A stretch of DNA of 64,000 nucleotides from Nostoc sp. MG11 (GTDB lineage: Bacteria > Cyanobacteriota > Cyanobacteriia > Cyanobacteriales > Nostocaceae): NCBI RefSeq assembly GCF_014904695.1, contig NZ_JACXXN010000002.1, forward strand, positions 310,001-374,000, written 5' to 3'. The position numbers and the translations under genes were made by a program. The notes beneath the pieces were generated by a model. It saw only the letters and a list, made by a program, of their open reading frames with translations, ran no database searches and was not told where the DNA came from. Of this stretch, positions 10,105 to 64,000 are shown piece by piece (position 1 is the first letter of the stretch; every line of letters starts with the position of its first letter).

Positions 10105-10145
10105 CTGATACAAAGCGATTAAGCTTAGCTAACAAGTTAACCTAC

Positions 10146-10553: not shown

Positions 10554-10586
10554 GAGAGCGCTGCATATCGATTGATTCTAGGCAAA

Positions 10587-20300: not shown

Positions 20301-20380
20301 CATCAGAACAAGCTGTAGCAGTAGCTAAGTCCTTGGCTAAGTTGACAGCAATTGCACAACAACAGGAGGGTGAAGATTAG
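17378..20380 (+). CDS. Membrane chemoreceptor-like protein with three DxCF cyanobacteriochrome-type GAF domains (PixJ-like)
   Basis: About 1000 residues. Order: polar N-terminus, membrane helix about 64-84, second hydrophobic segment (LLIETGVIALTAGAIAAFLANRAT) about 118-140, linker/HAMP-like region, three GAF domains, then a coiled-coil signalling end. Each GAF has DPCF and, exactly 28 residues later, Cys-His: Cys274/Cys302, Cys446/Cys474 and Cys618/Cys646. That is the two-cysteine arrangement of DxCF cyanobacteriochromes such as PixJ, which bind a bilin and sense blue/green light. The C-terminus (QVTSQIKFHVMKIALEAARTG) resembles the MCP signalling tip but is diverged. ATG 17378 has GCGAGG upstream; an earlier ATG at 17348 is in frame. 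Chromophore binding is inferred, not proven. Confidence 0.8.
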   Translation: MTQPSSDKSNSNNATTSSVTRLDKAAKSNSQSRLNRRMTKLSSFASLSESLLPEQQWSLKSKATFWAIALTMLPVLTVGIASYFGSQSITEQITQARFTRSKTDLQEVELALNKNRSSLLIETGVIALTAGAIAAFLANRATRQVLSAAEISTALVNRLRREEVGTRTRVADQDELVTLQANINLLQEQLPELIWKQEAEAERSQLLMNVTRRIQEALSEEDVLRTTVEQVREAFKIDRVVIFRFDERGSGTFIEEAVAPGLPKTLWATVSDPCFEGGYVEQYRQGRVRAINDIYQANLKDCHIGLLERFAVKANLIAPILKDNQLFSLLIGHQCSAPRFWQQSEINLFAQIATQVGFALDHARLVEKIDNRADQAQLISDITRRIRRSLNEEDVLRTTVDEVRKAISTDRVIIYSFDSNWYGTVIAEAVLPGFPKALRAKIKDPCFTEGYVEKYQAGRVQATNNIYEAGLSACHISQLEPFAVKANLVAPILKDDQLFGLLIAHQCSVPREWQQSEINLLAQLAMQVGFALDHARLLQRIDAEGMQTHLIADITKRIRRSLNEEDVLRTTVDEVRKAISTDRVIIYSFDSNWYGTVIAEAVLPGFPKALRAKIKDPCFTEGYVEKYQAGRVQATNNIYEAGLSACHISQLEPFAVKANLVAPILKDDQLFGLLIAHQCSAPREWQQSEIDLLAQLAMQVGFALDHARLLDQVEHAYESVESAFYEQQQQKEALQHQASELLRDSETVVETLSSETVSQMESVTSAYNQIQALANYAQEMLLCLQQAERHEQRLNHTLKDGLEGMNQTGDSIWAIRATVIEAAARVKRLDQPSQKLLQGVSLIAQVTSQIKFHVMKIALEAARTGAAGGDVSIAEKVLYLAQQLDADIAEIQSLVAEIHTANNEIVALMEAGKEQAIAGTKGAAETQQKLNQINVISTQVNALIEELTQATTNQVETSTAASQSILEVASIANQTSEQAVAVAKSLAKLTAIAQQQEGED
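18531..19496 (+). repeat. Tandem near-identical duplication encoding GAF2 and GAF3 (516-bp period)
   Basis: From GAATTCGGCG at 18531 and at 19047 the two copies run nearly base-for-base to the end of the GAF (about 18980 and 19496). By eye there are only about four substitutions in roughly 450 bases, including synonymous changes. The period of 516 bp equals 172 codons. Confidence 0.9.
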
Positions 20381-20455
20381 ATTATGAGGGGGCAGGAGGC
20401 AGGAGGCAGGAGGCAGGGGGGTGGAGGAGCAACAGGAGTGCAGTTTTTATGCTTG

Positions 20456-20735
20456 TTCACGCGTATCAAAGACTCATTAAAGGAGTTCCGAGCTTCATTC
20501 ACGCGTATCAAAGACTCATTAAAGGAGTTCCGAGCTTCATTCACGCGTATCAAAGACTCATTAAAGGAGTTCCGAGCTTCATTCACGAGTATCAAATACT
20601 CATTAAAGGAGTTCCGAGCTTCATTCACGAGTATCAAATACTCATTAAAGGAGTTCCGAGCTTCATTCACGAGTATCAAATACTCATTAAAGGAGTTCCG
20701 AGCTTCATTCACGAGTATCAAATACTCATTGTTGC
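20456..20735. repeat. 42-bp minisatellite, seven copies
   Basis: Units begin TTCACG at 20456, 20498, 20540, 20582, 20624, 20666 and 20708 (the last partial). Copies 1-3 carry GCGTATCAAAGACTC; copies 4-7 carry GAGTATCAAATACTC, in which GAGTAT and ATACTC form a perfect 6-bp stem with a CAA loop. 42 is divisible by 3 and no stop occurs, so long frames run through on both strands (14-residue repeats such as FTRIKDSLKEFRAS); these are probably not genes. G/C-rich GGAGGCAGG and CCTGCCTCC tracts flank the array as an inverted pair. Confidence 0.95.
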
Positions 20736-20815
20736 ATTCCAAAATATCTTTCTTTCCTGTCTTCCCTGCTCCCTGCCCCCTGCCTCCTGCCCCGCTACCG
20801 AGCTTCAGCACTTTT

Positions 20816-22624
20816 TCAAAAAGACACTGCAACCCGAAAACCGAGAAGGTTTCCCCGGCCGTTTTGAGGATTCCAACTGCGATAAGCAGACCGACATAGC
20901 CTCAAAGAATTTTTCCAAGAACCACCTCGAACCAAACGAGACTGACCATCATCGTTAGATAACCGCACACTACTATCAAAGGGTGCGCCTTCATAATTGT
21001 CGTGCCAATGATCCGCGCACCATTCCCACACATTGCCATGCATATCGTATAACCCAAAGGCATTTGCTGGAAAACTTCCTACTAAGCTCGTTTGCCCATA
21101 ATTCGTCCCTTGGGAGCCAGCATTGTAGATATTGTTGTTGTAGTTTGCCAAGCTGGGGGTGAGAGTATCACCAAAATGAAAAGGGGTAGTGGTTCTGGCA
21201 CGGCAAGCATACTCCCACTCAGCTTCGCTAGGAAGTCGATAGGCTCGTCCTGTTTTCTGAGACAATCGCGCACAAAACTCTACTGCATCGTCCCAAGAAA
21301 CTTGCTCTACCGGATAGTTTATCCCTTTAAAATTAGCTGGCTCAGGATCGAGATCGCGATTAATTGGTGGAAGCAATGCAATTGCTCGCCATTGTGCTTG
21401 GGTAACTGGAAACCTACCCATAAAAAAGGATTGGACTGTTACAGAGTGCTGTGGACTTTCAGAATCAAATCGTTCTAGTTCATAGTCTGGAGAACCCATA
21501 AGGAACTGCCCCCCAGGAATAGATACCATCGCTAAGGTGATCTCATTACCTAGATCTTCAATAAAGCATTGAGCAAAGCCACGAGTACGATTAATGTCAT
21601 AGGTAGCTGTGGAGGCAAACGATTGTTTTAAAGAGACAGTGGCTATCTCAAACTCAACTTGTTGCACAGGTAAGATTGTCGTCTCAACCTCAATTTTCTC
21701 AAACTCAAATAAATCGAGATCAAATTGCGATCCAACCATTGAGTTGAGGTTTGACGGTGCAGGTGATGGAGACGAGAGTAGCAGCGAGGATGATGGCGGC
21801 AACACTGTAATTGAAGTAAGTGCTTGCAATGCTTCAACTGCTGACGGATAGCGCAAAGTATAGTTATCTAACACCATTGTGTCTAGAATATCGGCAAAGC
21901 GATCGCTCACCCGTACACAGTCACGCCAGAGAGGTTGCCCAGTACGAGAATCTTCGTGCAGGAGATAGGGAGGAATTCCTGTCAAGGCTTCAATGCCCAT
22001 CATTCCTAAAGCGTAGACATCACTGCACAGACGAGGTTTACCTCTGGCTTGCTCAGCGGGTATATAGCCTAGAGTGCCAATAAATACAGTGTTACGAATT
22101 ATCTTCCGAAGATTGATTGAGAGGGTACCAATTTCTTTCACAGAGCCAAAGTCAATCAAGAATAGCTTGCCATCTTGTTTACACCGCATCACATTTTCGG
22201 GCTTAATGTCTCGGTGAATTACATTGTGTTGATGGACAAAGACTAGCACCTCTAAAATTTCCTGTAACAGCTTCGTGACATTGCTCTCTTGAAGTTGCTT
22301 TCCCCGCACAATTTCTTTTCTGAGAGTGTGTCCCTCTACATAGTCTTGGATAATGTACAGCTCATTTTGCACAGCAAAGTGAGCCAGAAGCCGGGGGATC
22401 TGGGGATGTTCACCTAATTTCTCCTGGATCACTGCTTCCTGCTCAAAGAGTTCCAGTATCTTTGGATGAGTATGCTTTGGTTTGAGTCGCTTAACTACAC
22501 ATACAGGTTTGCTGGGACGTTTTTGATCTCTAGCCAAGTAGGTTTCACCAAAATTTCCTTCACCCAGTTGTTTAAGGATTTTGTAGCGTCCATCCAGTAG
22601 TTCTCCTATAAAATCCATACTCAT
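20816..22624 (-). CDS. Ser/Thr protein kinase fused to a formylglycine-generating-enzyme (FGE/sulfatase-modifying) domain
   Basis: 602 residues. Residues 10-270 are a Hanks-type kinase: glycine loop LGEGNFGETY, Lys45 in VVKRL, catalytic Asp139 in HRDIKPEN, Asp158 in DFG, and APE-like PAEQARGK. A Pro/Ser-rich linker follows (about 275-350). Residues 358-600 are an FGE-sulfatase fold (MVSIPGGQFLMGSP, VTQAQW, LPSEAEWEYACRA, GLYDMHGNVWEWC, VRGGSW, GFRVAVSF). No membrane helix. In cyanobacteria such fusions are signalling proteins in which the FGE-like part is probably a sensor or binding domain (C-type-lectin-like) rather than a sulfatase activator. Promoter side faces the repeat-rich gap at 22625-23112. 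Confidence 0.92.
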   Translation of the reverse strand: MSMDFIGELLDGRYKILKQLGEGNFGETYLARDQKRPSKPVCVVKRLKPKHTHPKILELFEQEAVIQEKLGEHPQIPRLLAHFAVQNELYIIQDYVEGHTLRKEIVRGKQLQESNVTKLLQEILEVLVFVHQHNVIHRDIKPENVMRCKQDGKLFLIDFGSVKEIGTLSINLRKIIRNTVFIGTLGYIPAEQARGKPRLCSDVYALGMMGIEALTGIPPYLLHEDSRTGQPLWRDCVRVSDRFADILDTMVLDNYTLRYPSAVEALQALTSITVLPPSSSLLLSSPSPAPSNLNSMVGSQFDLDLFEFEKIEVETTILPVQQVEFEIATVSLKQSFASTATYDINRTRGFAQCFIEDLGNEITLAMVSIPGGQFLMGSPDYELERFDSESPQHSVTVQSFFMGRFPVTQAQWRAIALLPPINRDLDPEPANFKGINYPVEQVSWDDAVEFCARLSQKTGRAYRLPSEAEWEYACRARTTTPFHFGDTLTPSLANYNNNIYNAGSQGTNYGQTSLVGSFPANAFGLYDMHGNVWEWCADHWHDNYEGAPFDSSVRLSNDDGQSRLVRGGSWKNSLRLCRSAYRSWNPQNGRGNLLGFRVAVSF

Positions 22625-50610: not shown

Positions 50611-51063
50611 ATGCAGATTCAGTTCCGTGATGTTAATCCATTTGATGTTTGGATTTGGCTGAAGTTCAGCACCATTCCTTCTGGGCGTGAAAAGCAGTAT
50701 GTAGAAGAGGTTTTTAATTCCTGGTTTTATTTAGGTAAACTGGGTGCATTCAATGCTGAAAATCTGCAAGTGCAGGAAACTGGATCAGATATCAACTACA
50801 TGGATTATGATCCACAAGGGTATGACAAAAGCCTGCTAGCGCTGATGCATAACATGGGTGAGTTTGAGTATGAGGGTGTGTGGGCGCGTTGCTGGTTTGA
50901 CTTAGGAACAAGTGATGCGATCGCCTTAGATATCTTAATCAATGCCCTCACACAGCTTTCTGAGGAATATGTCACTCTTGAAGAATTGTACATCGGCGGC
51001 GAAAATACAGATTGGCCTGTCGAAGATAGTGACAGTCGTTCTCACTCTATTTACGACAATTAG
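50611..51063 (+). CDS. DUF3531-like cyanobacterial/plastid protein
   Basis: 150 residues from MQIQFRDVNPFDVWIWLKFS; TTG 50602 gives three extra codons and is less likely. Conserved-looking pieces are EKQYVEEVFNSWFYLGKLGAFNAENLQVQE and WARCWFDLGTSDAIALDILINALTQLS. Resembles the DUF3531 group, found in cyanobacteria and plants; role unknown. The NUDIX gene starts 8 bases after its stop, so they are probably one operon. Confidence 0.7.
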   Translation: MQIQFRDVNPFDVWIWLKFSTIPSGREKQYVEEVFNSWFYLGKLGAFNAENLQVQETGSDINYMDYDPQGYDKSLLALMHNMGEFEYEGVWARCWFDLGTSDAIALDILINALTQLSEEYVTLEELYIGGENTDWPVEDSDSRSHSIYDN

Positions 51064-51071
51064 TTACAACA

Positions 51072-51503
51072 ATGAATAAACCAGGTGAAATTCGGCTATT
51101 AGCCTTGGGGCTAATTCGGGATGGCGAACGCATATTTGTTTCTGAAGGCTATGATCCAGTCAAGCAAGACACATTTTATCGTGCTCTGGGTGGTGGTGTT
51201 GAATTTGGTGAAACTAGCCACGTAGCTTTAGAGCGAGAATTTCAAGAAGAAATTCAGGCAGATTTAACGAATATTCGCTATCTGGGTTGTATAGAAAATC
51301 TGTTTACATTTAATGGTAGACAAGGACACGAAATTATTCAACTTTACCAATGTGATTTTGCCGAACCCAAATTTTATCAACTAGAAAGTTTAATTTTTTC
51401 CGAATCAGAAACCCATAAACATCGGGCACTTTGGATAGAAATTTCTCGTTTTAAATCTGGAGAATTAAGATTAGTACCAGAAGTATTTTTTGAGTATCTG
51501 TAA
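51072..51503 (+). CDS. NUDIX hydrolase
   Basis: 143 residues. The NUDIX box is complete: GGGVEFGETSHVALEREFQEEIQ (Gx5Ex7REUxEExGU with Gln/Ala at the end). It hydrolyses a nucleoside diphosphate linked to another moiety, using Mg2+; substrate not predictable. Coupled closely to the DUF3531-like gene. Confidence 0.92.
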   Translation: MNKPGEIRLLALGLIRDGERIFVSEGYDPVKQDTFYRALGGGVEFGETSHVALEREFQEEIQADLTNIRYLGCIENLFTFNGRQGHEIIQLYQCDFAEPKFYQLESLIFSESETHKHRALWIEISRFKSGELRLVPEVFFEYL

Positions 51504-51545
51504 ATTAGCTAAAAAACCGGAGATATTTAACAAACCATAGGCTAA

Positions 51546-51686
51546 AACTTTGAAGTTTATTATATTAACTCTTGGGGAATAGAAGTTAAAAAAAATGGTC
51601 AGTTTGGCGATTATTTATCACGTGGCGGTATGAGCGATCGCTTACTAATAATATCTACTCTTTTTGGATTTAAAGTCTTGGTTTAG
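51546..51686 (+). pseudogene. Short coding relic
   Basis: An open 46-codon stretch without a start, giving NFEVYYINSWGIEVKKNGQF, then GDYLSRGGMSDRLLIISTLF and GFKVLV before TAG. It looks protein-like and may be the end of a lost glycosyltransferase- or transferase-type gene. Weak. Confidence 0.3.
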
Positions 51687-51731
51687 TAGCCAATCCTGAT
51701 AGTTTTACCTTTCAAAAAACTCAGATACTTA

Positions 51732-52538
51732 CTAATCGCGAATCGCAACAATATTCTGATAGGCAAAGAGTTCGTAATGAATTTGTCTTCCGCCTAAATA
51801 TGCCTTCATAGGAATAAGTCCATCTCGCATCATTCTATGAAGACGATACCCTTTTAAAATCTCTTGAAAGTCTCGAAAAAATGTTCGAGACATGATATTC
51901 ATATCGTTAAACTCAAATTGGATCATTTTTATGATGCCACTACTAAGAGTTTCTCTAGCCCCTTTTAAGACGGCTAATTCATGTCCTTCTGTATCTATCT
52001 TCAGAAAATCTATCTCTTTAATATCATGCTCTTTGACAAAATCATCAATGGTAGTTATCTCTATTTCGTACTCTATCGATGATGAATAATGCAGCACTTC
52101 TATGACATTCTTATACAACGATGCATGTCCTGAAGAATCTTGATCACGGTAGTCATATATCTTTGCTTTACCCTTTTGATCACCACATCCAACATTAATT
52201 GCCTGGAAGTTGAATTCTTTAGCAACTTGGGACAACGTATTAAAATGAACTGGATGAGGCTCGAATGAATATAAAATCGAGTTTGGAGCTTCAGTCTTAA
52301 TTTCACGCGAATAACTACCAATATTCGCGCCAACATCAAATATTACCTTTTTTTCTTTTCCTTTGATGTATTTTTTAATAAAAAAGTCTTCTCCTGAATC
52401 AACTTTGCTTTCATAATTTAAAATGCCCATTCCTCGAAGCGAAAGATGAAACAGAGCTAAATGAAAATTAAATAAAGATTTCCTGGTAAAAAGAAATTGA
52501 TAGGTTCGTTTTAGCCACTTCATTACAGAAAGCCTCAT
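51732..52538 (-). CDS. FkbM-family methyltransferase
   Basis: 268 residues. SAM-binding IFDVGANIGSYSREI (about residue 71-85) and the FkbM-defining IDFLKIDTEGHELAVLKGA (about 172-190), followed by IQFEFNDMNI. It methylates a hydroxyl, commonly of a sugar, in polysaccharide or glycolipid synthesis. The higher AT content than its neighbours may indicate acquisition; it stands alone. Confidence 0.88.
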   Translation of the reverse strand: MRLSVMKWLKRTYQFLFTRKSLFNFHLALFHLSLRGMGILNYESKVDSGEDFFIKKYIKGKEKKVIFDVGANIGSYSREIKTEAPNSILYSFEPHPVHFNTLSQVAKEFNFQAINVGCGDQKGKAKIYDYRDQDSSGHASLYKNVIEVLHYSSSIEYEIEITTIDDFVKEHDIKEIDFLKIDTEGHELAVLKGARETLSSGIIKMIQFEFNDMNIMSRTFFRDFQEILKGYRLHRMMRDGLIPMKAYLGGRQIHYELFAYQNIVAIRD

Positions 52539-52754
52539 CTAAATATTGTTAAAAATTATACAAATTGCTGTTACATTTATCATGTCTATTTATCAAAAAT
52601 CAATCCCTCTAGCTGTAGATTGATGTCAAACTTTGCATAGTCTTTTGAAAAACACTGAATTAATTAGGATTAGCCCTTTAAAAAGGAATGTATCTTTACT
52701 TTGTGTCTTATAGTCTTAGTGGTTAAAAAGGCAATTTTTTAACTACCAAGACAA

Positions 52755-52842
52755 GGGCAGCCGTGTGGGTAGGTTTCCCATGCCAGTCCGCACAATGGGA
52801 GGAACCCCCGCAAGCGGCTGGCTCGACTTGAACGGACTGCCC
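52755..52842. repeat. GC-rich structured element inserted in an A-rich repeat
   Basis: GGGCAG (52755) and CTGCCC (52837) close an 88-base unit. GGTTTCCCAT (52772-52781) pairs with ATGGGAGGAACC (52795-52806), and CAGTCCG with CGGACTG. The flanks (CTACCAAGAC / ACTAAGACACGAAG) look like one interrupted A-rich repeat. Either a MITE or a structured RNA; no tRNA fold. The rest of 52539-53079 holds no gene. Confidence 0.45.
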
Positions 52843-53079
52843 GTACTAAGACACGAAGATGAAAAGCCTAAGATTCGGGAAAATATTTGGGATTTTTAGC
52901 CACTTTGAAAGGGCTACTAATTAGCATTCTTAACCTGAATCTTTCAACATAAGTCAGGAGTCTGCTGTATTGTTGACTCCTGCCTTTGGTGATTGCGAAT
53001 AATGCAAACCAAGTCTGTATCAGCCTACTGGGGTGATTATGTTTCCCCAAAGTCCTATTTTAGTATCCTCAGCTAATAT

Positions 53080-53385
53080 TTACTTGCCGCTATAAAAAAA
53101 GGCAATTTCTTTCTCTTTTAGGGGTGCGAAACCAGCATCTACAAGTAATTTGTCGAGTTCTGCTTGGGGAATATGTTTTGCACCAATTCGTACAATACGC
53201 GATCGCATTGTATTGGAAACGCCACTACGCTGTCTATTGCCCTCTAGCGCCATAACTTTACCATAAAGTTCTAGCTTGGCAAGCGGAATGGGAGTACCAT
53301 CAAAATCAATTCCTTGCGCGATCGCTTCATCAATAGCATCCGCACCTGTGGTAGTTTGATTTCCTGGGTTAGTTTCAGTAGGCAT
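53080..53385 (-). CDS. Hypothetical cyanobacterial protein (101 aa)
   Basis: Soluble protein with TGADAIDEAIAQGIDFDGTPIPLAKLELYGKVMALEGNRQRSGVSNTMRSRIVRIGAKHIPQAELDKLL, ending FFYSGK. Evenly conserved-looking and probably a DUF4090-type family (from memory, unsure). No membrane helix. Function unknown. Confidence 0.7.
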   Translation of the reverse strand: MPTETNPGNQTTTGADAIDEAIAQGIDFDGTPIPLAKLELYGKVMALEGNRQRSGVSNTMRSRIVRIGAKHIPQAELDKLLVDAGFAPLKEKEIAFFYSGK

Positions 53386-53592
53386 GACAATTTGCTCTCA
53401 AGGCTATAAGCAGATTTTACCAGCGTTGCTGATCCCTTAATATTCTGTTTGCCTACTCACTGGTATTTTTCTGTAATCCCCAATCCCTAATTTCCAGTCC
53501 CTTTTACGCCTGTTCCCTGCTATATATACGCTTGTCAGTTTTGAAGATTTTGGTTTAATCTCAAACCAACGGTGTGGCAATTAGGTGATGCT

Positions 53593-53976
53593 ATGTCTGA
53601 TGTCCAAACTCCTCACGACAAAGACCGTAAGCTCGAAAAAGCTCTGACCAACAAAATCATAGACGAATATTTTGACAACTCAGAAAGTTGGCTCAGAGCC
53701 ATTTTGCGGATGTGTATCTTTTCGTTGGCTCACCTGGATGGTTTACCAGTTCTTGTTATCGAATGCCCGAATCAAGCAGTGGCTAAGCGGCTGAGTCGCA
53801 AAACTTATCCTTTTCGAGGAATTGTATATTATTTAACTGATAATCTTGATGGTCGCGATCGCAGCCTGTTTTGCTATCAAGAGCGCTCTGGGGATTGGCG
53901 TTGTTTTGATACCAGTACTTACACGTGGAAAACTTTGGGTAATTTGCAATCGCCTATTGCTCCGACTGATGGTTGA
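53593..53976 (+). CDS. Hypothetical protein (127 aa)
   Basis: ATG 53593 (MSDVQTPHDKDRKLEKAL) is preferred to the upstream in-frame GTG at 53572. Contains NSESWLRAILRMCIFSLAHLDGLPVLVIECPNQAVAKRL and YQERSGDWRCFDTSTYTWKTL. No family recognised. It ends 324 bases before the lasso precursor and is probably unrelated to it. Confidence 0.65.
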   Translation: MSDVQTPHDKDRKLEKALTNKIIDEYFDNSESWLRAILRMCIFSLAHLDGLPVLVIECPNQAVAKRLSRKTYPFRGIVYYLTDNLDGRDRSLFCYQERSGDWRCFDTSTYTWKTLGNLQSPIAPTDG

Positions 53977-54145
53977 TTAAGGAGTTAGGAGTCAAGAGTC
54001 AAAAGTCAAGAGAAATTACTGCTGACATGATGCGATGGTCCTGAGATTGGTTTGAATGGCACGACCTCTACAAGAGAACTCTTGCAAAATTTTTTCCCAG
54101 TTTTGGAATATTTTGTGTAGAGTCTTCGTTATAAGAAATAGAAAC

Positions 54146-54160
54146 TGCTGATCATCAGCA
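54146..54160. promoter_or_regulatory. Dyad TGCTGAT-C-ATCAGCA upstream of the lasso operon
   Basis: A perfect 7-1-7 inverted repeat lying just downstream of a TATAAG hexamer (54130-54135) that could be a -10 box. A dyad at that place would suit a repressor operator. No convincing -35 at the right spacing was seen, so the promoter itself is uncertain. Confidence 0.4.
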
Positions 54161-54299
54161 AATCTATAGGAAGAGGATTAGACCTAAGCCCGAAGACCAC
54201 GACAGAGAGAGGCTGTTCATGGTGATCACGCACTAGAGAATCAAACAAAGCATTCTGTCTTTTGAATTCTTTTTCAATTTTCTTTGATAGGAGCTAGTT

Positions 54300-54458
54300 A
54301 TGAAATTTCAACAGCTTGAATTGACAAATACATGCAGTAGTGGTGAACAAGCCAAAGCACAAGACTATCACGCGCCAAAACTATACGAACTTGGCAATCT
54401 CGATAAAGTACAGGGTTACTGGGGATATTGGGATGATTGGGGTGGGTATTATTCTTAA
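54300..54458 (+). CDS. Lasso peptide precursor
   Basis: 52 residues, preceded by AGGAG 7 bases before the ATG. Residues 1-38 are the leader, with the lasso motif Tyr-x-x-Pro-x-Leu-x-x-x-Gly at Tyr23, Pro26, Leu28 and Gly32 (YHAPKLYELG). Residues 39-52 are the predicted core GYWGYWDDWGGYYS. Gly1 would be joined to the side chain of Asp7 or Asp8, giving a 7- or 8-residue ring and a 6-7-residue tail with Trp9, Tyr12 and Tyr13 as possible plugs. The usual Thr at leader position -2 is absent (KVQ before the core). The identity follows from the motif plus the adjacent B and C genes; the ring position is inferred. Confidence 0.88.
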   Translation: MKFQQLELTNTCSSGEQAKAQDYHAPKLYELGNLDKVQGYWGYWDDWGGYYS

Positions 54459-54543
54459 TCCATTTATAGCCAATAGCGAGGATTGAAAGCTCAATGCTTT
54501 TGATCAGACGGTACTCACCAAGCTAAGTCTTGAAAACGTAATC

Positions 54544-55341
54544 ATGACGCAGGCACCTTGCAGAGATGTTTCTCAAGCTGCCTGCTCATATACAAAAACA
54601 AAGAGATTGACGTTTATGACAAACATAGGGTGGCAAGAACTTAGCTCCAATATGTTGATGAAGGCAGAACAATCCTACCATCTCCAAGCGGATGTAATCT
54701 TGTTCTTGCAAAATGGAGTGGCACGGCTGCTAGATCTCAATCGTGGCAGATTTTACGGATTAGATTTAGTCAGTACAAAAATGTTAATGCTCTTAATTGA
54801 GCATGGTTTAGAGACGTCTGTGCATTATATTGCTCAGGAATATGGTATTACAGAGGAGCAGGTGCGAACTGACTTAACAAAATTCCTGCGTGATTTGCAA
54901 TCTAAGCAATTGATTCGCTCTAAATTACCACACTCCCACCCTGTAGTACCATCTCCTCTCGTTACCTCTGTGTTGCTAACACTTGCCTGGATTAGCATTC
55001 GTATTTTGGGTTGGACTAAAACTATCCGTTTTTGGCAGTTTTGGCACTATCCTACTGACAATAATAAACTTTCTGGCGATTGGGAAACAGCAGTCAAAGC
55101 AGTTGATGACGTAGTTCGTCAAACAGCAGCGAGGTACTTTTTATTGCCGATTGCCTGTAAAGAACGTGCCCTTGTTGGTTGGCAAATTCTAAAAACAATT
55201 TTTGGTTTTCCAGCAGAACTAGTGTTTGGCATTAACTTATATCCTTTTCAGGCACACGCTTGGGTAGAGTGTGGCTCCTGGATTGTAACGGATGATCGTA
55301 GCCACTGTGAGATATTTACCCCTGCAATACGGTATTGCTAA
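54544..55341 (+). CDS. Lasso peptide maturation protein B (RRE/PqqD fused to B2 transglutaminase-like protease)
   Basis: 265 residues. About 40-118 is a PqqD-like recognition element (VILFLQNGVARLLDLNRGRFYGLDLVS, ITEEQVRTDLTKFLRDLQ) that binds the leader at the YxxP motif. About 165-265 is the B2 domain with its Cys-His-Asp triad: Cys205 in PIACKERALVG, His238 in PFQAHAWVE and Asp250/251 in VTDD. It cleaves the leader from the core. ATG 54544 is the first start; ATG 54616 (MTNIGW) is an alternative that removes 24 residues. The stop is 2 bases before the cyclase ATG. Confidence 0.9.
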   Translation: MTQAPCRDVSQAACSYTKTKRLTFMTNIGWQELSSNMLMKAEQSYHLQADVILFLQNGVARLLDLNRGRFYGLDLVSTKMLMLLIEHGLETSVHYIAQEYGITEEQVRTDLTKFLRDLQSKQLIRSKLPHSHPVVPSPLVTSVLLTLAWISIRILGWTKTIRFWQFWHYPTDNNKLSGDWETAVKAVDDVVRQTAARYFLLPIACKERALVGWQILKTIFGFPAELVFGINLYPFQAHAWVECGSWIVTDDRSHCEIFTPAIRYC

Positions 55342-55343
55342 AT

Positions 55344-57239
55344 ATGAGAGTAGGATTTGATGTCTTCACTGCCTTGAATGAAGATACTCAGTTTCATTTA
55401 TTTTCCTGCCATAGAGATGATCCCAAGCAAGCACCTTTAGTTACATTTGCTGACGATCGCCAATCTGGAGTTGCATCTGTACTTTTGGGACACCTGTGTT
55501 ATCAAGATGAAATTCTCTCAAAATTGCCGCAATCAATGAGGCAAAGTTGTGCTTCCGATGCGACCATCGCCATAATTGTCTATTGTTACAGTGGTCTTAA
55601 GGCTCTTGAAGAATTAGAGGGTGAATTTTCCTTAGTATTGTGGGATGGAGCTTCGCAGCGTTTATTTGCTTTAAGAGACCCCCTTGGTTCGTGGCCTCTA
55701 TTTTGGCTCGTCAACTCCCAAAGAATAGCCGTAAGTACGAGTTTGCGATCGCTTCTGGCTTTGCTACCTGAAAGATCACTAGATCTTGATTTCATAGCCC
55801 AGTTTATTATGTGGTCTAATCCAGGTTTTGAGCTACCCACTGAAAGAACACCATTCCCAGAAATTAAGCGCGTTCTTCCTGGCACTACGTTGGAAATGAA
55901 CCCAATCGGACAGGTAAAAAGTCACTGTTGGTGGAATTGGAAAGCAAAACTCGGCAAAAATAATAACATCACACTAGAGGAAGCTGGCGAACAGTACGCT
56001 GAACTTTTGAGACAAGCCGTTAAACAAAGAGTCCAGCGAGGGCGAATTGCTGCCCATTTATCGGGAGGAATGGATTCTTCGAGTATAGTTTGTACGGCTC
56101 GTGAATGGATGCTATCAGGCGTAGGGCGATCGCCCTTACATACTTTGTCGGAAGTGTACAAAAGGCCTTGCTTGGTTGGTGAGCGAGATTATGTTGAAAT
56201 GGTGATTGAACAAGGTGGGCCAGTTGAAGCCCACTTGATCGACTCAGACAATGCACTGGACTTTCTTTGGTTTAACGAGGAAATCCCCATACATGATGAG
56301 CCTTACCCGTATTTAAACCAGTTGGGGATGGAAAAGATTTTAATTGAGACTGCCCATCAAGTTGGAGTAGACACTATATTGACAGGTATAGGAGGTGATC
56401 AACTACTAGCCAGCAAACGGCTTTACATCGCCGACTTTTTACGGCAGGGTCGATGGTTGGTAGCACTTTTCGAGGCTAACCGATGGGCCTATGCTAAAAA
56501 CCAAGATGTATGGTCGATAATGTATGGATGCGGTATTCAGCCTGCTTGGCCTATCTTAACAGGTGAAAGATTCGGATATTTCTTACGACATGGGTTTGGA
56601 CATTGGCCAAACCTTGGAGCATTTTCTATTCCTCCGTGGGTGATTCCTGATTTTGCTCGCAGTTATCAGATGCAGAGTGTTGGCAGAGAAAACGCTCAAA
56701 AGTTATATCATAGCCCTATTGAAATTGCTGCGGATTTATGGGCTATCCAAAGCTCTGTAGGAGATTGGTCTAGTTGGAATCTGGCAGCTCCACGAGGAAT
56801 GCACAACTCTCGTCCCTTCCTTGATCCACGTCTATTGAGTTTTTGCTTGGGGCTTCCAAGAAGCATCAGGGAAATCCCTGGGATGCCTAAACCCGTACTC
56901 CAAAAGGCTATGCAGGGAGTGTTGCCCGAAGCCATCCGTATTAGGACAGACAAAAGGTCTTTTAACGATAACTATTGGCTAGGTTTATCAAAGCATCTAC
57001 CGCAATTAGAAACAATGGTTCAAACTTCGGCTATCTGCGAGTTAGGTATATTTGATAAATCACAATTAATTCGAGTCATGCATCAAGCTGCCGTTGGTAT
57101 CGGAGATATGCCAACTTGTGGTCGCATTAACATCACACTTTCACTCATCGCCTGGTTTGAGCAGATGAGCAAGACCTGGCATCACCTTCTGGAAAAGCCC
57201 ACTGAAATACATTGTATAAATTATCTTTTGCAGATTTAG
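55344..57239 (+). CDS. Lasso peptide macrolactam synthetase C (asparagine-synthetase-like)
   Basis: About 631 residues. N-terminal Ntn-like domain (residues 1-190) without the catalytic Cys2 (starts MRVGFDVF), so no glutaminase activity, as in other lasso cyclases. A synthetase domain with the pyrophosphate loop SGGMDSS (Ser240-Ser246) and TGIGGDQLLAS. It adenylates the side chain of the core Asp and closes the isopeptide ring with the N-terminal amine. A TTG 9 bases earlier (55335) would overlap the B gene; ATG 55344 is preferred. Tight coupling to B and followed 34 bases later by the dioxygenase gene. Confidence 0.9.
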   Translation: MRVGFDVFTALNEDTQFHLFSCHRDDPKQAPLVTFADDRQSGVASVLLGHLCYQDEILSKLPQSMRQSCASDATIAIIVYCYSGLKALEELEGEFSLVLWDGASQRLFALRDPLGSWPLFWLVNSQRIAVSTSLRSLLALLPERSLDLDFIAQFIMWSNPGFELPTERTPFPEIKRVLPGTTLEMNPIGQVKSHCWWNWKAKLGKNNNITLEEAGEQYAELLRQAVKQRVQRGRIAAHLSGGMDSSSIVCTAREWMLSGVGRSPLHTLSEVYKRPCLVGERDYVEMVIEQGGPVEAHLIDSDNALDFLWFNEEIPIHDEPYPYLNQLGMEKILIETAHQVGVDTILTGIGGDQLLASKRLYIADFLRQGRWLVALFEANRWAYAKNQDVWSIMYGCGIQPAWPILTGERFGYFLRHGFGHWPNLGAFSIPPWVIPDFARSYQMQSVGRENAQKLYHSPIEIAADLWAIQSSVGDWSSWNLAAPRGMHNSRPFLDPRLLSFCLGLPRSIREIPGMPKPVLQKAMQGVLPEAIRIRTDKRSFNDNYWLGLSKHLPQLETMVQTSAICELGIFDKSQLIRVMHQAAVGIGDMPTCGRINITLSLIAWFEQMSKTWHHLLEKPTEIHCINYLLQI

Positions 57240-57273
57240 TGTTAGTACTTAACACTGAAGGGAGCAGTTAACA

Positions 57274-58257
57274 ATGCAAAGTATTTTAATTAACGATTTA
57301 TCAGTCGATTACTCTCTGACTAACCCAACTTCATTAGCAAAGTCCGACAACCAAGCTAAGCAGTTGTTTGGTGAGTTTGGTTGCTTTTTGGCTAAAGAAC
57401 TACTTACTGATGAAGAACTCAATTCAGTCCGCTGTGATATTAGGCAGCTGATTGAACTAAAAATGCAACAGTTAGGGTTGCAAAAAGAATCCACAGCAAA
57501 TGCGCTTACCGGATTTGATGAAGGATTTCAACAATTGAGTCAGTTAGAGTATATGCACGGACAGGTGATTAAACACGCTGCTCGTTTATTAATTTCTATC
57601 CACCAAATAAACGTCAACCCCAAGCTAGTCAGACTTTCCAAGAAACTGATGTCTACAAACACATTAATGGCTAATATGTTGTTTGATATACGGGTCGATA
57701 GACCTTACGAAGACGAGCATCTATTTCCGTGGCATCAGGATTATCCAGTTATCCAGGACTCTGAAGATGCAGTAGTATACTGGATTCCATTACGGAACGT
57801 GGAAGAACAGGATGGTTGTTTGCAGATTGCACCTGGATCGCACAAGCTGGGGGTGTTACCAAGGAGGGCACGGAGCAAGAATGAACCCCCAAGTGTCGAT
57901 ATTGTTGATTGGTCGATACTGAGGCAATTTCCGCATCTTCACGTACCTATGCAAATAGGCGACGTGCTGGTTTTCAATACCCTAATGCTACATGCCAGTG
58001 GAGTTAATCGCAGCGATCGCATCCGCTGGACACTCCAAATCCGCCACGGTAATTTTGAACATTCTAAAGCGATAGCAAGAGGTTGGCCCGCCAGTATGGC
58101 TCTCAAGATGCCTTTTGAGCGATCGCACCCAGAGTATATCATTGGTTCACCACTGATTGAAGATACCAATAGTCGAGAGCAGGAATTTAACCCATACTTT
58201 CAATTGCCTGATGAACTCAAACGCAATGCTAGATTGAGTACTTTCTATGGAGGATAA
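57274..58257 (+). CDS. Phytanoyl-CoA dioxygenase (PhyH)-family Fe(II)/2-oxoglutarate enzyme, candidate lasso tailoring hydroxylase
   Basis: 327 residues. The facial triad is visible: His154 and Asp156 in PWHQDYP and His240 in LMLHASGVN, with Arg249/251 nearby for 2-oxoglutarate, and EEQDGCLQIAPGSHKLG before it. The fold and motifs match the PhyH group of non-haem iron oxygenases, which hydroxylate peptides, antibiotics or lipids. A GGGAG ribosome site lies before the ATG. Being last in the A-B-C-PhyH run, it most likely modifies the lasso peptide (Asp, Tyr, Trp or Gly positions); that substrate is inferred from context only. Confidence 0.85.
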   Translation: MQSILINDLSVDYSLTNPTSLAKSDNQAKQLFGEFGCFLAKELLTDEELNSVRCDIRQLIELKMQQLGLQKESTANALTGFDEGFQQLSQLEYMHGQVIKHAARLLISIHQINVNPKLVRLSKKLMSTNTLMANMLFDIRVDRPYEDEHLFPWHQDYPVIQDSEDAVVYWIPLRNVEEQDGCLQIAPGSHKLGVLPRRARSKNEPPSVDIVDWSILRQFPHLHVPMQIGDVLVFNTLMLHASGVNRSDRIRWTLQIRHGNFEHSKAIARGWPASMALKMPFERSHPEYIIGSPLIEDTNSREQEFNPYFQLPDELKRNARLSTFYGG

Positions 58258-58336
58258 GCTAATTCATTCATGAAACTCTCTTTATTTCTTTTGTTAGCAA
58301 TTTAATATAACGAATGCCTCTCGTTAGAAGCTCACT

Positions 58337-58591
58337 CTAATCACGAGTTTGGCGCGTCACTGAACCGCCGATAAATGCCCCTAAAATTGTGCCTGTCCAT
58401 ATTCCTGTAGTGCTACCTTGCCACATTGCTCCTGGTGTTACCCAAGCGTTGCACATCTGCTTGAAACCCCAAGGCTGATTTTGACACTTTTGGTTATGCA
58501 ACATTAAGGTAATTTGTCCGCCAATGTAACCACCAAAAAAACCTGATGACAGTGCTAAAAAGGTGCAAATTAAAATTCTATTCTTAGTCAT
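58337..58591 (-). CDS. Small hypothetical membrane protein (84 aa)
   Basis: Two hydrophobic, glycine-rich segments: ILICTFLALSSGFFGGYIGGQITLML and GIWTGTILGAFIGGSVT, separated by a loop with two Cys (CQNQPWGFKQMC). The Met start lies beside a TGTTAATTGTCAATTGTCATT repeat. Unknown function; convergent with the dioxygenase. Confidence 0.6.
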   Translation of the reverse strand: MTKNRILICTFLALSSGFFGGYIGGQITLMLHNQKCQNQPWGFKQMCNAWVTPGAMWQGSTTGIWTGTILGAFIGGSVTRQTRD

Positions 58592-58613
58592 TTGTTAATT
58601 GTCAATTGTCATT

Positions 58614-58664
58614 AGTCCTTTGTCATTAGAACATTACCAAACCAAGGAATAATGACAAAGGACT
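58614..58664. repeat. 15-bp perfect inverted repeat downstream of ppc
   Basis: AGTCCTTTGTCATTA (58614-58628) and TAATGACAAAGGACT (58650-58664) are exact reverse complements around a 21-base loop. Made of TGTCATTA-type repeat units. It may terminate or protect the ppc transcript, but there is no T run. Confidence 0.65.
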
Positions 58665-58676
58665 CCACACAGCGGC

Positions 58677-61600
58677 TCAGCCTGTATTTCTCATACCCGC
58701 AGCAATGCCATTGATGGTTAACAATGCTCCTCGCAGTAGTTCACCTTTGCTGTAACGGGAGTGGATAACTCCAGAAGTGGCAGTAGTATTTAGAGATTGT
58801 CGTAGGCGCTTGAGCAGGGAAACCTGAATAAATCCCAAGGGTACAATTGTGCCATTGCGTAACTGTACAGATCGCTGTAATACAGGATCACCATCCAAAA
58901 GTCGATTGTGACCAGTGATTTTTAACACCAAATCCCTTGTGAGATAGAATTCGCTGGCAATTTGCTCAAAAACCTGCTCAAAGCGAAGTATGTCTTCTGG
59001 TTTTGACAATTCCTGAACATAGTGGTGCGCCATTTGTATGTCCACTTTTGCCAAGGTCATTTCTGCCTTGGAAATTACCATTTTGAAAAAGGGCCACTTG
59101 ACATAAAAGTAGCGCAGTAATTTCAGGTGTTCTTCTGGTTCTCCGTTCAAGAATTCTTGCAAAGCTGTGCCGACGCCGTACCAAGAAGGTAGTAAAAAGC
59201 GGGTTTGTGTCCAGCTAAATACCCAAGGTATAGCTCGCAGACTGCTTAAATCTTTCTTACCTGATGGACGCCGTGCGGGACGGGAACTAATTTGCAGCTG
59301 GCTAATTTCTTCAATTGGGGTTACTTGGTGGAAGAAGTCTATAAAATCGGGTTGTTCGTAGATTAAAGCACGATAATGTTGACGCGATCGCGCTGCTAAC
59401 TCTTCCATAATCTCATTCCAGGGTTCGATATCATCAAACCCAGTCCGCAGCAGACTAGCTTGAATCACGGCAGTGGTGATGGTTTCCAAATTGTACAAAG
59501 CTAAGTCCAGTAAGGAGTATTTGGAAGCCAAAACTTCTCCTTGTTCGGTAATCTTGATCCGCCCATTAATACTGTGACCTGGTTGAGCCAAAATAGCTTC
59601 ATAAGCTGGCCCACCACCGCGTCCCACAGAACCACCTCGTCCGTGGAAAATCCGCAGATTCACGCCATACCCTTCTGCGATTGTCTGGAGTGATTTTTGG
59701 GCTTTATGAATTTCCCAGTTACTACTTAAAAAACCAGAGTCTTTGTTGCTGTCAGAATACCCCAGCATTACTTCTTGTAAGTTAGGGGTGAGAGTTGAGG
59801 GGGAGGCAGAGGGAGCAGGGGAAGCAGGGGAGGCAGGGGGAGCAGGGGAAGCAGGGGGGGAAGAATCGCTGTCCGTAGTTTCTACTTTTATCTGTTCATA
59901 GCCGCCTGCTAATAAAGCTCGATATAGGGGGAGTTGAAACAGTTGCTGCATGACGGTTCTTGAGCGTTGCAAGTCTTCTACTGTCTCAAATAGAGGCACA
60001 ACTTGAATAGTTCCTACAGCAATGGCGGGGTCAAAAAGTCTGGCTTCTTTGGCTAAAAGCAACACTTCCAGTACGTCGCTAACTTCGCGGCACATGCTGA
60101 TAATGTAAGTGTGGCAGATATTGCCACCAAACTCTTGTTGTAGCGATCGCATGATCCGGAAGGTTTCAATTACATCGTTGGTCTTTTCGGAAAATGGTAA
60201 TTCTGCTGGAATTAATGGGCGACGGGTTTTTAGTTCTCCTGTTAGCCAAGCGACTCTTTGTTCTTCACTGAGTTCGTTATAAGGTTGAGGAAGTACTTGC
60301 AGGTATTCCAGAATTTCATTTAACGTATCGGCGTGGCGGGATGATTCTTGGCGAATATCCAGCTGTGTCAGGTTAAAGCCAAAAATTTCTACTTGACAAA
60401 TCAGATTTTCTAGTTCTCGACAGCTTAATCCTGTTTCGGTTAAGTTGCGTTGAATCAACCGCAGTTCTGCTAAAAAATCGTCTCCCGAACGATACATTGG
60501 GGTGTCTTGATTTTTTGGCGTTTCCCGGTTGTACAAAGCTAAATTGCGATCGCGTGTATTTTCTAGCCGTTTCTGTACATAAGCTAGCTTTAGCCGATAG
60601 GGTTCTTGCCGATAACGTAACGCCAGGGCGTCGTATACTTCGCTCAACTGGGACTGATCTAACTCTAGAGATTCCAACAAATCTGGTAAGACATCGCTCC
60701 AGTGCATCGACACACTCAATAATTCAATCAGCTGCTTCACTGACTCAATATATCTTCCCAACACCATTTTGCGCTGATAGCAAGCTGTTTGCCAGGTAAT
60801 TTCTGGTGTTACCGATGGGTTCCCATCCCTGTCTGAACCAACCCAAGAGCCAAAACAGCAGAAGTTTTTGCTCGGCGGTTCCAGCCAAGGAAAGGTAGCA
60901 GCTAAAGTGTATTTGAAGCGTTTATAAAGTTGGGGAATTCCATCAAACAATACTTCTTGAAAGTAGTGCAGGGCGTAATCTACTTCATCTAGTACTGAGG
61001 GTTTGAACTGGTGAAGCTCGTCTGTGCGCCACCACAGGCGAATTTCTTCGAGTAATTGTTCACGTAAATCTACTACTTCCCAAGCAGATCCTCCTCCTGT
61101 ACTACCAGCTCGACTTTCTAAAGAATCGAGCTGTTGCAAGAGTTTTACTACCTGTCGCTGTTTATCCCGGATGGTATGACGAACAATTTCTGTGGGGTGA
61201 GCTGTAAAGACCAAGCGTACATCTAGTTGTGAAATTAGGCGTTGAATTTGCTGGGGTGGTACGTTTAGTTTGAATAAATAGGGAAATAAAGCAGCGAAAG
61301 TACCTTTTTTACTTGATGCTTTGTCTACCCAATTCTTGGTCAGCAAGTCTCCTACTATCCCCCTCTTGACAGGCGCGTCGTCTTCTCCTTGGTTGGATGA
61401 ATAGATAATATTGGGTAGGGTTTCCTGCTCTGCTGGTTCTATTTGTGCCTCAAAGCGACTCAACTGCTGCTTTTGTTCATATTCCTGCTCTATGATGTTA
61501 ATCAGCTGAAAATACAGAGCGAAGGCACGAGCCGCTCGAATTGCTTCGTTGATATTCAGTTGTTCAATCAATTTTACGGCTGAGGAGGCTTGGTCATTTG

Positions 61601-61787
61601 TTGCTTGTCCTTCTGGTGAACACAGATCGCGCAACTGTCGCAACAGGTCTACCATATTTTGACCGCATTCTTGCCGGAGAACTGACTCCCACAATTCTTC
61701 TACCACCTGTAGACGATGTCGCAAAAATAATTCCGACGCCGGACATATATTTGCAGCCTGAGACAAAGAGTATAAAAGGGAACCCAT
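58677..61787 (-). CDS. ppc: Phosphoenolpyruvate carboxylase
   Basis: 1036 residues. Signature regions: [12 protein letters not shown] (catalytic His), [29 protein letters not shown] and [14 protein letters not shown], with the C-terminal MRNTG end. It fixes bicarbonate onto PEP to give oxaloacetate, replenishing the TCA cycle. A Ser/Pro/Ala run at about residues 641-667 ([20 protein letters not shown]) just before [14 protein letters not shown] is encoded by a G-rich repeat (59790-59865) and is not part of the normal enzyme. Stands alone. Confidence 0.97.
59790..59865. repeat. G-rich repeat inside ppc
   Basis: Repeated GGGGAGGCAG/GGGAGCAGGGGAAGCAG units, like those in intergenic regions at 13300, 20395, 20765, 24705 and 48420. 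In frame within ppc, it encodes the Ser-Pro-Ala linker next to an active-site region. Confidence 0.75.
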
Positions 61788-61891
61788 ATTCTCTATTCTT
61801 GATAAAGCTGATTACTGTTTACACTTCTACGTTCTGCACCCAATGCTCATGGTATTTTTCCGGAGCAAATAATTGTTTATAGTAAATTTTT

Positions 61892-62128
61892 CTAACTTTT
61901 ATCGAGTTCGTTGTCGTCTGGAAAGTTGAGGATGGGTAGGCGATCGCCTCGAAATAATTCTTCACTGGCTTCCCCTATAGCTTCTAGTGCTCTGACAGTA
62001 GTTTTCTGTGTGGTGAGCAGCAGTAGTATAGACGCTGTACCTATTTGTAAAAGGATAGATTGGGAAATGCTAAACAAAACCAGATTTAATCCAGAGTTAG
62101 GAGAAGGCTGTTGGTTGGCAGAAGGCAT
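61892..62128 (-). CDS. Small hypothetical membrane protein (78 aa)
   Basis: One membrane helix (GLNLVLFSISQSILLQIGTASILLLLTT), then an acidic tail ALEAIGEASEELFRGDRLPILNFPDDNELDKS. Conserved-looking; unknown role. Lies upstream of ppc in the same direction. Confidence 0.6.
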   Translation of the reverse strand: MPSANQQPSPNSGLNLVLFSISQSILLQIGTASILLLLTTQKTTVRALEAIGEASEELFRGDRLPILNFPDDNELDKS

Positions 62129-62345
62129 TGCTAATTCTCAGTTATTAGGAAGATGAGTAAAATAAACGCAAAACTTAAGATTCAGTCTGACTTGCAACCG
62201 TACAAAACTATCTTTGCCCATTTTGCGAGCTACGAAGGTGACAAAAGTGTTAAAAAAAAATGTCAGAGTGTGATAAATCTATGGTTCTAGTTTACAAGTG
62301 CAGGCACTATCCCCCAATCATCGCTTCCTGTAAAGTTAACTTCCC

Positions 62346-64000
62346 ATGAAAACAGTATTACCAGACCACCAGCAATCCTTAGTGCAATTGGTAAGCCAAG
62401 CAACAGGAATCAACACTTTTGGGGTGAAAGTCCGGTTGCGGGGAAACGATCTGCACATTCTTTGTGAAGGTACAGAGTGTCCGCAACGTTGGCGAACTTT
62501 GTCTGATTTGCTGCGAGCATTACAGCAAACAGACTTGGATACTCTCACAAGCAGCGAACAACCCTCAATATACCAAGTATTTGTCTACGGTCGAAAAAAA
62601 GAGCAACAGCGCCCCCAATGGTGTCATCGGGTTTACTTGAATCAAATAGAACGGCATCTGGAGCAGGCGCAACAAGCTCTGTTAGAAGACTCGGAAAAAT
62701 CAAGACAACCCGGTGGGGCGCTGATTGTCTCTAACGAAAGTTTGGCACGCCAGGGACATCCAGATGCTATTGCTCGTTATCTTAGCGAAACTTTGAGTAC
62801 CTTGGGGGTGGCAGTACAGGTAAAGATTCGGAAGTCTCAGCCAAGACAGAACTCTCAGCCTGATGAAAATCGCCTATGGATATTTTGTCAATCGAGCTAT
62901 AGCCCCGATGCATCATTGCTAGCGGAACCAGTAGCCCAAAAGTTGCGTCATCTGAAGCTTTGCGGCTACCAGGATGCCGTGATTGTTTCGCAAGTCAGCG
63001 GTGAGAGTGCGCCAGATTGGTTATTGCGGATTGATCTAACGCCGCCAGAGGTGATGCTCAAGGAATGGGCGCGTTGGGGAGATGTGCAGGCGATCGCCAT
63101 GCTATTAACTGAGTTATTTGCCGAGTCCAAAGTTGCCATCCAAGCTTCTCTCAAAGAATCAACCCTGCATGTCTTTTGCACCCCAGCTTTTGACCCTTTA
63201 GAAACTGCCCCAGCGCCAGATAAAGCCCAGTGCTTGGAGGCGATTTTACCACTGCTAGAAGCGATCGCGCCCCAAGGCATGCTCGCCGCCACCATCTACG
63301 GTCAAAAAACAGGCGATAAGCAACCCGCTTGGATTGATTGGGTTTCTTTACCTGCTACTGAACATCCTGCTCTTGCTGTGTCAGCACTAGAACTGGCGAC
63401 TACTGGCGATGAACCTGCGATCGTTTTTTTACTGGAGCGCTTACTTAATCCTGACCTAGAGTGGCGTTTATTAACAGGTGGTATTCGGGTACTCCTGCTA
63501 AATAAAGGTGATTTATTGCACATTATGTGTGATGCGCCCGTTTGTCCAGCACGCAAACAAGTCGCAAACAAAGTTGCTCAGTTTGTGCGTCAGTTAAAAC
63601 TTCCTGCAATTATGGGAGTGCGTGTTTACGGACGCCGTGCTGGCAATAAAGAACCTTTTTGGCACTACGGTGTTGATTTTGATCATCGCCAACGTTTAGT
63701 ACCAGAAGCTACCCCAGAATTTGCTGCTACTTCTCAATATGTTAGCGACCTCATCACCTCTGAGACAGACGAGCCAATTTTGCGTCCCGATTTAACAACA
63801 GAAGAAGTTCAAAGTTTTGTTACGGGAGTGGCGCGGGATTGGGTGACAACGGCAAGTGCAACAGTGAAAAAATGGCTGTTGGTAACTCAGCTATTTACCG
63901 AAAACAACCAGTCAGCGGATTTCAACTCTGATAGTCAAGGACTTAAGGTCGCTTTAGTCTGGGGAACGTTGGGATTATTGCTTACTCTCCAAACCGATTG
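62346..64000 (+). CDS. DUF1574-like cyanobacterial protein, 3' end cut by window
   Basis: Open from ATG 62346 to the window end (over 550 codons). Two similar modules are visible: FGVKVRLRGNDLHILCEGTECPQRW (residues about 25-50) and GIRVLLLNKGDLLHIMCDAPVCPARK (about 380-405), each followed by a VFVYGRKK/VRVYGRRAGN strand, so the N-terminus is an internal duplication. The translation ends entering a hydrophobic stretch (VALVWGTLGLLLTLQ), where a membrane part probably begins. It resembles the large DUF1574 proteins of Nostocales. Function unknown. Confidence 0.75.
   Translation, partial: MKTVLPDHQQSLVQLVSQATGINTFGVKVRLRGNDLHILCEGTECPQRWRTLSDLLRALQQTDLDTLTSSEQPSIYQVFVYGRKKEQQRPQWCHRVYLNQIERHLEQAQQALLEDSEKSRQPGGALIVSNESLARQGHPDAIARYLSETLSTLGVAVQVKIRKSQPRQNSQPDENRLWIFCQSSYSPDASLLAEPVAQKLRHLKLCGYQDAVIVSQVSGESAPDWLLRIDLTPPEVMLKEWARWGDVQAIAMLLTELFAESKVAIQASLKESTLHVFCTPAFDPLETAPAPDKAQCLEAILPLLEAIAPQGMLAATIYGQKTGDKQPAWIDWVSLPATEHPALAVSALELATTGDEPAIVFLLERLLNPDLEWRLLTGGIRVLLLNKGDLLHIMCDAPVCPARKQVANKVAQFVRQLKLPAIMGVRVYGRRAGNKEPFWHYGVDFDHRQRLVPEATPEFAATSQYVSDLITSETDEPILRPDLTTEEVQSFVTGVARDWVTTASATVKKWLLVTQLFTENNQSADFNSDSQGLKVALVWGTLGLLLTLQTD

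Follow-up and report, generated by a model that had tools for sequence, protein, structure and literature searches.

A four-gene cassette in Nostoc sp. MG11 probably makes a lasso peptide on which a PhyH-family oxygenase would hydroxylate a side chain. The cassette spans positions 54300-58257 of the window, the whole 64,000-nucleotide stretch analysed here, and consists of a precursor gene (A), a fused B gene, a cyclase gene (C) and the PhyH gene, all on the + strand, with intergenic gaps of 85, 2 and 34 bases between A and B, B and C, and C and PhyH. This layout was described in the original prediction, and its coordinates, gaps, motifs and active-site residues all agree on recomputation. The features are as follows:

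54300..54458, + strand: precursor A, open reading frame of 52 aa; leader MKFQQLELTNTCSSGEQAKAQDYHAPKLYELGNLDKVQ, core GYWGYWDDWGGYYS
54414..54455, + strand: predicted core, 14 aa, from comparison of 10 leaders and cores; ring predicted Gly1-Asp8
54544..55341, + strand: fused B, 265 aa; Pfam and NCBIfam, catalytic residues checked
55344..57239, + strand: lasso cyclase C, asparagine-synthetase type; Pfam and NCBIfam, motif and start
57274..58257, + strand: PhyH-family Fe(II)/2-oxoglutarate oxygenase, 327 aa, predicted tailoring enzyme; PF05721
54259..58256, no strand: stretch common to the window and Nostoc LEGE 12450 by blastn; A-B-C-PhyH, little besides
54028..58336, no strand: stretch missing from the same-genus genome G366 by blastn and tblastn; G367 nearly alike

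The arrangement is not a product of chance, given that homologous cassettes are present in two other genomes and that dN/dS over the four genes is 0.05-0.36. For PhyH the ratio is 0.094 against Komarekiella atlantica HA4396-MV6 (L009), 0.099 against Nostoc LEGE 12450 (L010) and 0.117 against Scytonematopsis (L011; dS near saturation), and A, B and C fall within the same range. Neither neighbour is related to the cassette: one is a DUF4090/ssr1528 protein, the other a small protein whose glycine-zipper match falls below threshold. Beyond the small protein lies a 1036-aa open reading frame that, from its sequence, we take to be PEP carboxylase. The cassette itself contains no transporter or isopeptidase gene, and positions 53900-58700 gave no Rfam match at gathering scores. 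Promoter-like sites are fewer than in shuffled sequence (5 versus a mean of 9.0) and terminator-like sites somewhat more numerous (7 versus 3.8, sd 2.2), with none of the latter on the + strand downstream of PhyH.

Precursor, fused B protein and cyclase

Assignment to the lasso class had been predicted from an RRE-B protease with a Cys-His-Asp triad, a cyclase without Cys2 and a YxxPxL leader, all of which were found. The B protein is a PqqD-like RRE (residues 62-124) fused to a transglutaminase-like leader protease with Cys205, His238 and Asp250, and matches PqqD at 36.2 bits (cut-off 23.4) and Transglut_core3 at 51 (cut-off 26) in Pfam, and lasso_biosyn_B2 at 53.7 (cut-off 33) in NCBIfam. 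The C protein matches Asn_synthase at 92.3 (cut-off 21) and GATase_7 at 51.6 (cut-off 25) in Pfam, and against the NCBIfam lasso cyclase models it scores strongly, yet below what each requires (198 of 525 and 171 of 300). Its ATP-binding motif SGGMDSS lies at 56061-56081. The start of C is likely ATG 55344, the mechanical open reading frame beginning at TTG 55335, and because the N-terminus reads MRVGF, the glutaminase Cys2 is absent.

Precursor A has no match among the Pfam and NCBIfam models, and 50 and 48 of its 52 aligned residues are identical to those of two homologues. Its leader motif, YHAPKLYELG, conforms to YxxPxLxxxG. Thr at the penultimate leader position is usual in lasso precursors, though not universal; here the position is held by Val, or by Gln if the cut falls one residue later, and the distance from Tyr to the cut is 16 residues against a canonical 17. 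The lasso reading is thus supported with one departure, namely a leader without Thr(-2) that is shorter by one residue. Ile or Val at -2 occurs in a minority of other lasso precursors, among them that of the bsf cluster (PMC10368454), where, as in the window, Thr(-2) gives way to a hydrophobic beta-branched residue, but where Tyr lies 17 residues before the cut and tailoring is by a kinase, whereas the window has Tyr at 16 and PhyH.

Cleavage and ring size were assessed on ten precursors picked by eye from open reading frame lists, comprising those of the three cassettes and of seven related clusters; the ten are not independent, as three are from near-identical cassettes. A further related cluster, L061, has two precursors that were kept apart because their spacing is canonical. 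The leader ends in Val/Ile-Gln, with Val or Ile at -2, in 10/10 precursors, and the residue that would follow is Gly, Ala or Ser in nine of them (Asp in L056), for which reasons cleavage after Gln38 is preferred to cleavage after Gly39. It is possible that the cut falls one residue later and that the ring starts from Tyr1: the spacing would then be canonical and Gln(-2) invariant, the cores of the set would begin with Tyr, Asp, Asn, Phe, Thr or Ser, and the window core would carry Tyr1 and Asp7. With the preferred cut, the small N-terminal core residue and the Asp or Glu at positions 7-9 are present as Gly1 and Asp8.

The window core, GYWGYWDDWGGYYS, includes 3 Trp and 4 Tyr among its 14 residues and, like that of K. 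atlantica, ends in Ser; the LEGE 12450 core, GDYWGYWADWGGYYSS, ends in SerSer. Ala replaces Asp7 in LEGE 12450, which speaks against Asp7 as the ring acceptor and favours Asp8, the shared Asp being residue 8 in the window and 9 in LEGE 12450. The predicted ring is therefore of 8 residues in the window and of 9 in its sibling. Calculated [M+H]+ values with the preferred cut are 1756.6703 for the unmodified window lasso and 1772.6652 with one oxygen added, and 1914.7394 and 1930.7343 for the sibling; the later cut would give 1699.6488 and 1715.6437 for the window and 1857.718 and 1873.7129 for the sibling. Asp or Glu stands at position 9 in 8/10 precursors, the exceptions being those of the window and K. 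atlantica.

Gain, loss and distribution of the cassette

A scan of the PhyH protein over 84,980 species genomes, which finds close relatives only and may omit the genome of the window itself, returned seven relatives. The closest is in K. atlantica HA4396-MV6 (98% identity), where the four genes lie at the same place as in the window, followed by that in Nostoc LEGE 12450 (92%), where they lie at another place, on a 26.9-kb contig that also encodes a relaxase, a mobilisation protein and ParA-like proteins; these two genomes were taken as G365 and G406 of a second genome set. When 12 kb of the window (51001-63000) was compared with the LEGE 12450 contig by blastn, only 54259-58256 was alike. 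The similarity begins about 40 bases upstream of the precursor and runs to the stop codon of PhyH; it falls into two pieces (89.7% and 90.5% identity) because the gap between A and B is longer by about 200 bases in LEGE 12450. Two other genomes of the window's genus lack the block: the sequences that flank it in the window, up to 54027 and from 58337, are 5 bases apart in G366 and about 50 bases apart in G367, and none of the four cassette genes was found in the 16 kb fetched from each. A third same-genus genome, G368, lies outside the flank comparison since its contig ends at the site, and none of the three has a PhyH match with E up to 1e-15. Because the similarity to LEGE 12450 covers the cassette alone and G366 and G367 are without the whole block, A-B-C-PhyH is gained or lost as one block, and the conclusion that PhyH is part of the A-B-C unit is well supported.

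PhyH at 91% identity or more is present in 3/217 Nostocaceae genomes, with A-B-C adjacent in all three. An unlinked PhyH gene in homologues had been named as the finding that would overturn the prediction, and the close homologues are linked without exception; the linkage is nonetheless confined to a single lasso lineage of three genomes, two of which share a genus. PhyH beside a lasso A-B-C operon had been called uncommon or undescribed in cyanobacteria, and no description of a PhyH-type enzyme linked to a lasso cluster was found in the literature searched, which covers few subscription papers. Lasso B2 domains, by comparison, occur in 106/217 Nostocaceae genomes. PhyH matches with E up to 1e-15 are present in six of the 217, three at 91% or more, two, in crystallin loci, at 63-65% over the main piece, and one at 26%. 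At E up to 1e-20, matches occur in 5/291 genomes of the order, the four besides the window's own having 26-30% identity, and a PhyH profile at E up to 1e-30 matches in 2/386 genomes of the phylum, the window's own among them; the family, order and phylum samples overlap. The PF05721 family taken together is common (190/217), and so the rarity concerns this PhyH clade and its placement.

Among PLSDB plasmids, PhyH has one match (31%, Azospirillum) and C, at E up to 1e-60, also one, on the Nostoc sp. ATCC 53789 plasmid NZ_CP046704.1, corresponding to the related cluster L055. At least eight PhyH-lasso B pairs lie within 60 kb of each other, the two genes being 2.4-2.7 kb apart in the three cassettes and 11.7-31 kb apart in the other five; among the matches listed, three genomes have PhyH 11.7-12.3 kb from other lasso B genes and on the opposite strand. 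Two of the five distant pairs were read, L111 (15625-16524) and L113 (14652-15530), and both were rejected as further PhyH-lasso pairs, having the PhyH gene on the opposite strand among glycosyltransferase-looking neighbours in glycan-like operons.

The oxygenase, its probable substrate and its relatives

The PhyH protein matches PF05721 at 80 bits (cut-off 22). H154-x-D156, H240 and R251 are invariant in 6/6 aligned rows (three of them near-identical, L013 truncated), and R251 is presumably the 2-oxoglutarate-binding Arg, judging from the fold family. In Fe/2-oxoglutarate enzymes an HxD triad, as opposed to HxA/G, goes with hydroxylation rather than halogenation, and the HxD in the metal triad of PhyH points to a hydroxylase over a halogenase. 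An AlphaFold model built from six rows was too poor (mean pLDDT 38.7) to judge the double-stranded beta-helix fold by. The nearest solved structures by sequence, all remote, are 1-deoxypentalenic acid 11-beta hydroxylase and phytanoyl-CoA dioxygenase (E about 1e-7).

Lasso hydroxylation as such is already known, and CanE is the functional precedent. According to PMC9266682, CanE hydroxylates the linear precursor CanA, aided by CanB1, and the lasso hydroxylation that we found covered in two reviews is that by CanE and by a proposed ResE, both from Streptomyces (PMC9266682, PMC8498205). Canucin A of Streptomyces canus resembles the cassette in its 14-residue core, an Fe/2-oxoglutarate gene of its own and its RRE/B and C logic, but differs in that CanB1 and CanB2 are separate, whereas the window B is fused, and in coming from another phylum. 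It is the C-terminal Asp14 of canucin that is hydroxylated, and since the window core ends in Ser, a CanE-type C-terminal Asp target is impossible here. CanE is likened to PhyH here by function. A phytanoyl-CoA dioxygenase gene is also named, in one paper, in a thioamidated RiPP cluster.

The established B and C families account for leader recognition, cleavage and ring closure; we infer the threading, cleavage site and ring size. The RRE half of B would hold the leader through YxxPxL and the protease half would cut after Val37-Gln38; C would then activate the Asp8 side chain with ATP and join it to Gly1, closing the ring around a threaded tail, WGGYYS. PhyH would use Fe(II), O2 and 2-oxoglutarate to add a hydroxyl group to one of the peptide's side chains. 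By analogy with CanE, this step would most likely come before folding, while the precursor is still linear and bound to B; the fused RRE could bring PhyH and the protease into one complex. Linkage, selection and the CanE precedent together suggest the peptide as the PhyH substrate. The candidate residues for oxidation are those conserved in all three aligned cores, namely Tyr, Trp, Gly, the acceptor Asp and Ser; the Ala that LEGE 12450 has in its place makes it unlikely that Asp7 is required. If the proposal is true, the cassette would extend the question of how oxygenases reach a lasso precursor to another phylum and to a B protein in which RRE and protease are fused, and its 4-kb size and natural sibling, whose predicted ring has 9 residues versus 8, make a direct expression test feasible.

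The cluster might instead make an unoxidised lasso peptide while PhyH acts on a small molecule such as a sugar, or has a protective or regulatory role. This is rather unlikely, but a small-molecule substrate is possible given that remoter PhyH proteins, at 25-30% identity, lie in NDP-sugar or surface-polysaccharide loci, including L072-L075 (25-29%) and L110, where gene functions were judged by eye; a 43% relative (L013) has a methyltransferase-like neighbour, also by eye, and TIGR04324 (sporadic carbohydrate cluster oxygenase) is among the best NCBIfam matches of PhyH, although at 34 bits it is far below the cut-off of 150. The cassette, however, has no sugar gene, the block common to LEGE 12450 and missing from G366 and G367 is A-B-C-PhyH, and the sister pair of PhyH genes adjoins a ribosomal peptide gene rather than a sugar gene.

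It is also unlikely, and slightly more so, that PhyH oxidises the Trp- and Tyr-rich core in another way, by desaturation, a C-O or C-C crosslink or epimerisation, and so adds a constraint besides the lasso ring. The 3 Trp and 4 Tyr of the core, against 0-1 Trp in seven related PhyH-free clusters, are in keeping with such chemistry, but Trp content does not cleanly track PhyH, since the two precursors of the PhyH-free L061 have 2 and 3 Trp. The PDB relatives SnoK and SnoN, the latter named an epimerase, point the same way but are weak matches (E 1.5e-5 and 0.0027), and the PhyH proteins concerned form a single lineage with HxD...H, the ordinary hydroxylase triad. It is improbable that the peptide is cyclised without being threaded (branched-cyclic), or that the cluster is degenerate: a tail of six residues, the non-canonical leader end and the missing transporter would fit, yet the catalytic motifs of B and C are kept, dN/dS of all four genes is well under 1, and canucin is itself a 14-mer lasso (PMC9266682).

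The relatives next in line are in Scytonematopsis (L011) and Cyanomargarita (L012), at 56-58% identity by tblastn. At both loci (L011 7452-8948 and L012 7527-8957, reread as L070 and L071) PhyH lies between transporter genes, which encode a C39-peptidase ABC transporter and an HlyD protein (domain calls made for L011), and the gene of a 116-aa peptide that combines a beta/gamma-crystallin domain with what reads by eye as a double-glycine leader. The expected linkage to lasso genes therefore holds for the nearest relatives, but not for these, both of which sit beside a crystallin peptide system with no lasso genes. Phylogenetic analysis of 16 PhyH proteins unites the two crystallin-linked with the three lasso-linked ones in one clade (support 99/99) and puts five from sugar loci in a separate group (100/100), with several outer branches long and unsure. 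Like the cassette, the system of L011 and L012 places a member of this clade beside a ribosomally made peptide; unlike it, the system is not lasso, and the substrate would be a small folded protein. It is possible, from gene content, that these loci encode an oxidised, exported crystallin peptide.

Similar crystallin peptides are present in 22/217 Nostocaceae genomes, and PhyH of this clade adjoins them in two. PhyH thus seems to be an add-on in both settings. The relationships suggest that a sugar-type oxygenase lineage was recruited to two kinds of ribosomal peptide, and the crystallin link opens the wider question of how a sugar-type oxygenase becomes a peptide oxidase. We tentatively propose, with the balance tipped somewhat against it, that the Nostocaceae PhyH clade is a portable peptide oxidase, one lineage oxidising both lasso peptides and C39-exported double-glycine crystallin peptides. 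The window's own genome also encodes such a crystallin peptide, on another contig.

Related clusters without PhyH and other small loci

Besides the window's own, 12 candidate fused-B loci with an open frame of 235-340 aa were picked from the B2 matches, five matches in frames of 577-603 aa having been left out. Ten of the 12 have clear B and C genes, two being the known cassettes and eight (L054-L061) other clusters; L053 and L064 were rejected, their B matches being weak and without a C match. No PhyH was found in the eight, each searched over 16 kb, so that the predicted association of PhyH with a lasso cluster stands for all three close homologues but is not general. The eight Nostocaceae clusters resemble the window in their fused B (31-41% identity) and in C (39-48%), and seven of them have precursors like that of the window, with Tyr 16 residues away from a leader end of [VI]Q; YxxPx[LI]xxxG fits six of the seven, L056 being looser. 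They differ from it in lacking PhyH and in their cores, which have 0-1 Trp in seven clusters and the higher counts already given for L061.

A pentapeptide-repeat protein is encoded between or beside the precursor, B and C genes in 4/4 PhyH-free clusters scanned:

L054 5456-6532: pentapeptide-repeat protein
L055 6834-7967: pentapeptide-repeat protein
L058 8933-10390: pentapeptide-repeat protein
L060 8211-9359: pentapeptide-repeat protein

Pentapeptide-repeat proteins are able to protect DNA gyrase, and their presence here may hint at self-immunity and at the target of these peptides. Similar-looking pentapeptide-repeat-like genes were seen, by look, in L057 and L059.

The window's own genome contains four further lasso B2 loci, three of which have small open reading frames with the leader motif (L066 4644-4805, L067 8043-8171 and L068 8414-8578), one of these with a run of seven Arg in its core region. 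Beside the cassette on the LEGE 12450 contig, small open reading frames at 10073-10390 and 10542-10763 have double-glycine-like leaders, in one case followed by PVPAPNAGTVV repeats. Elsewhere in the window, positions 20377-20958 form a tandem DNA repeat in which several frames of either strand are open, one of them encoding, for example, repeats of NEYLILVNEARNSF.
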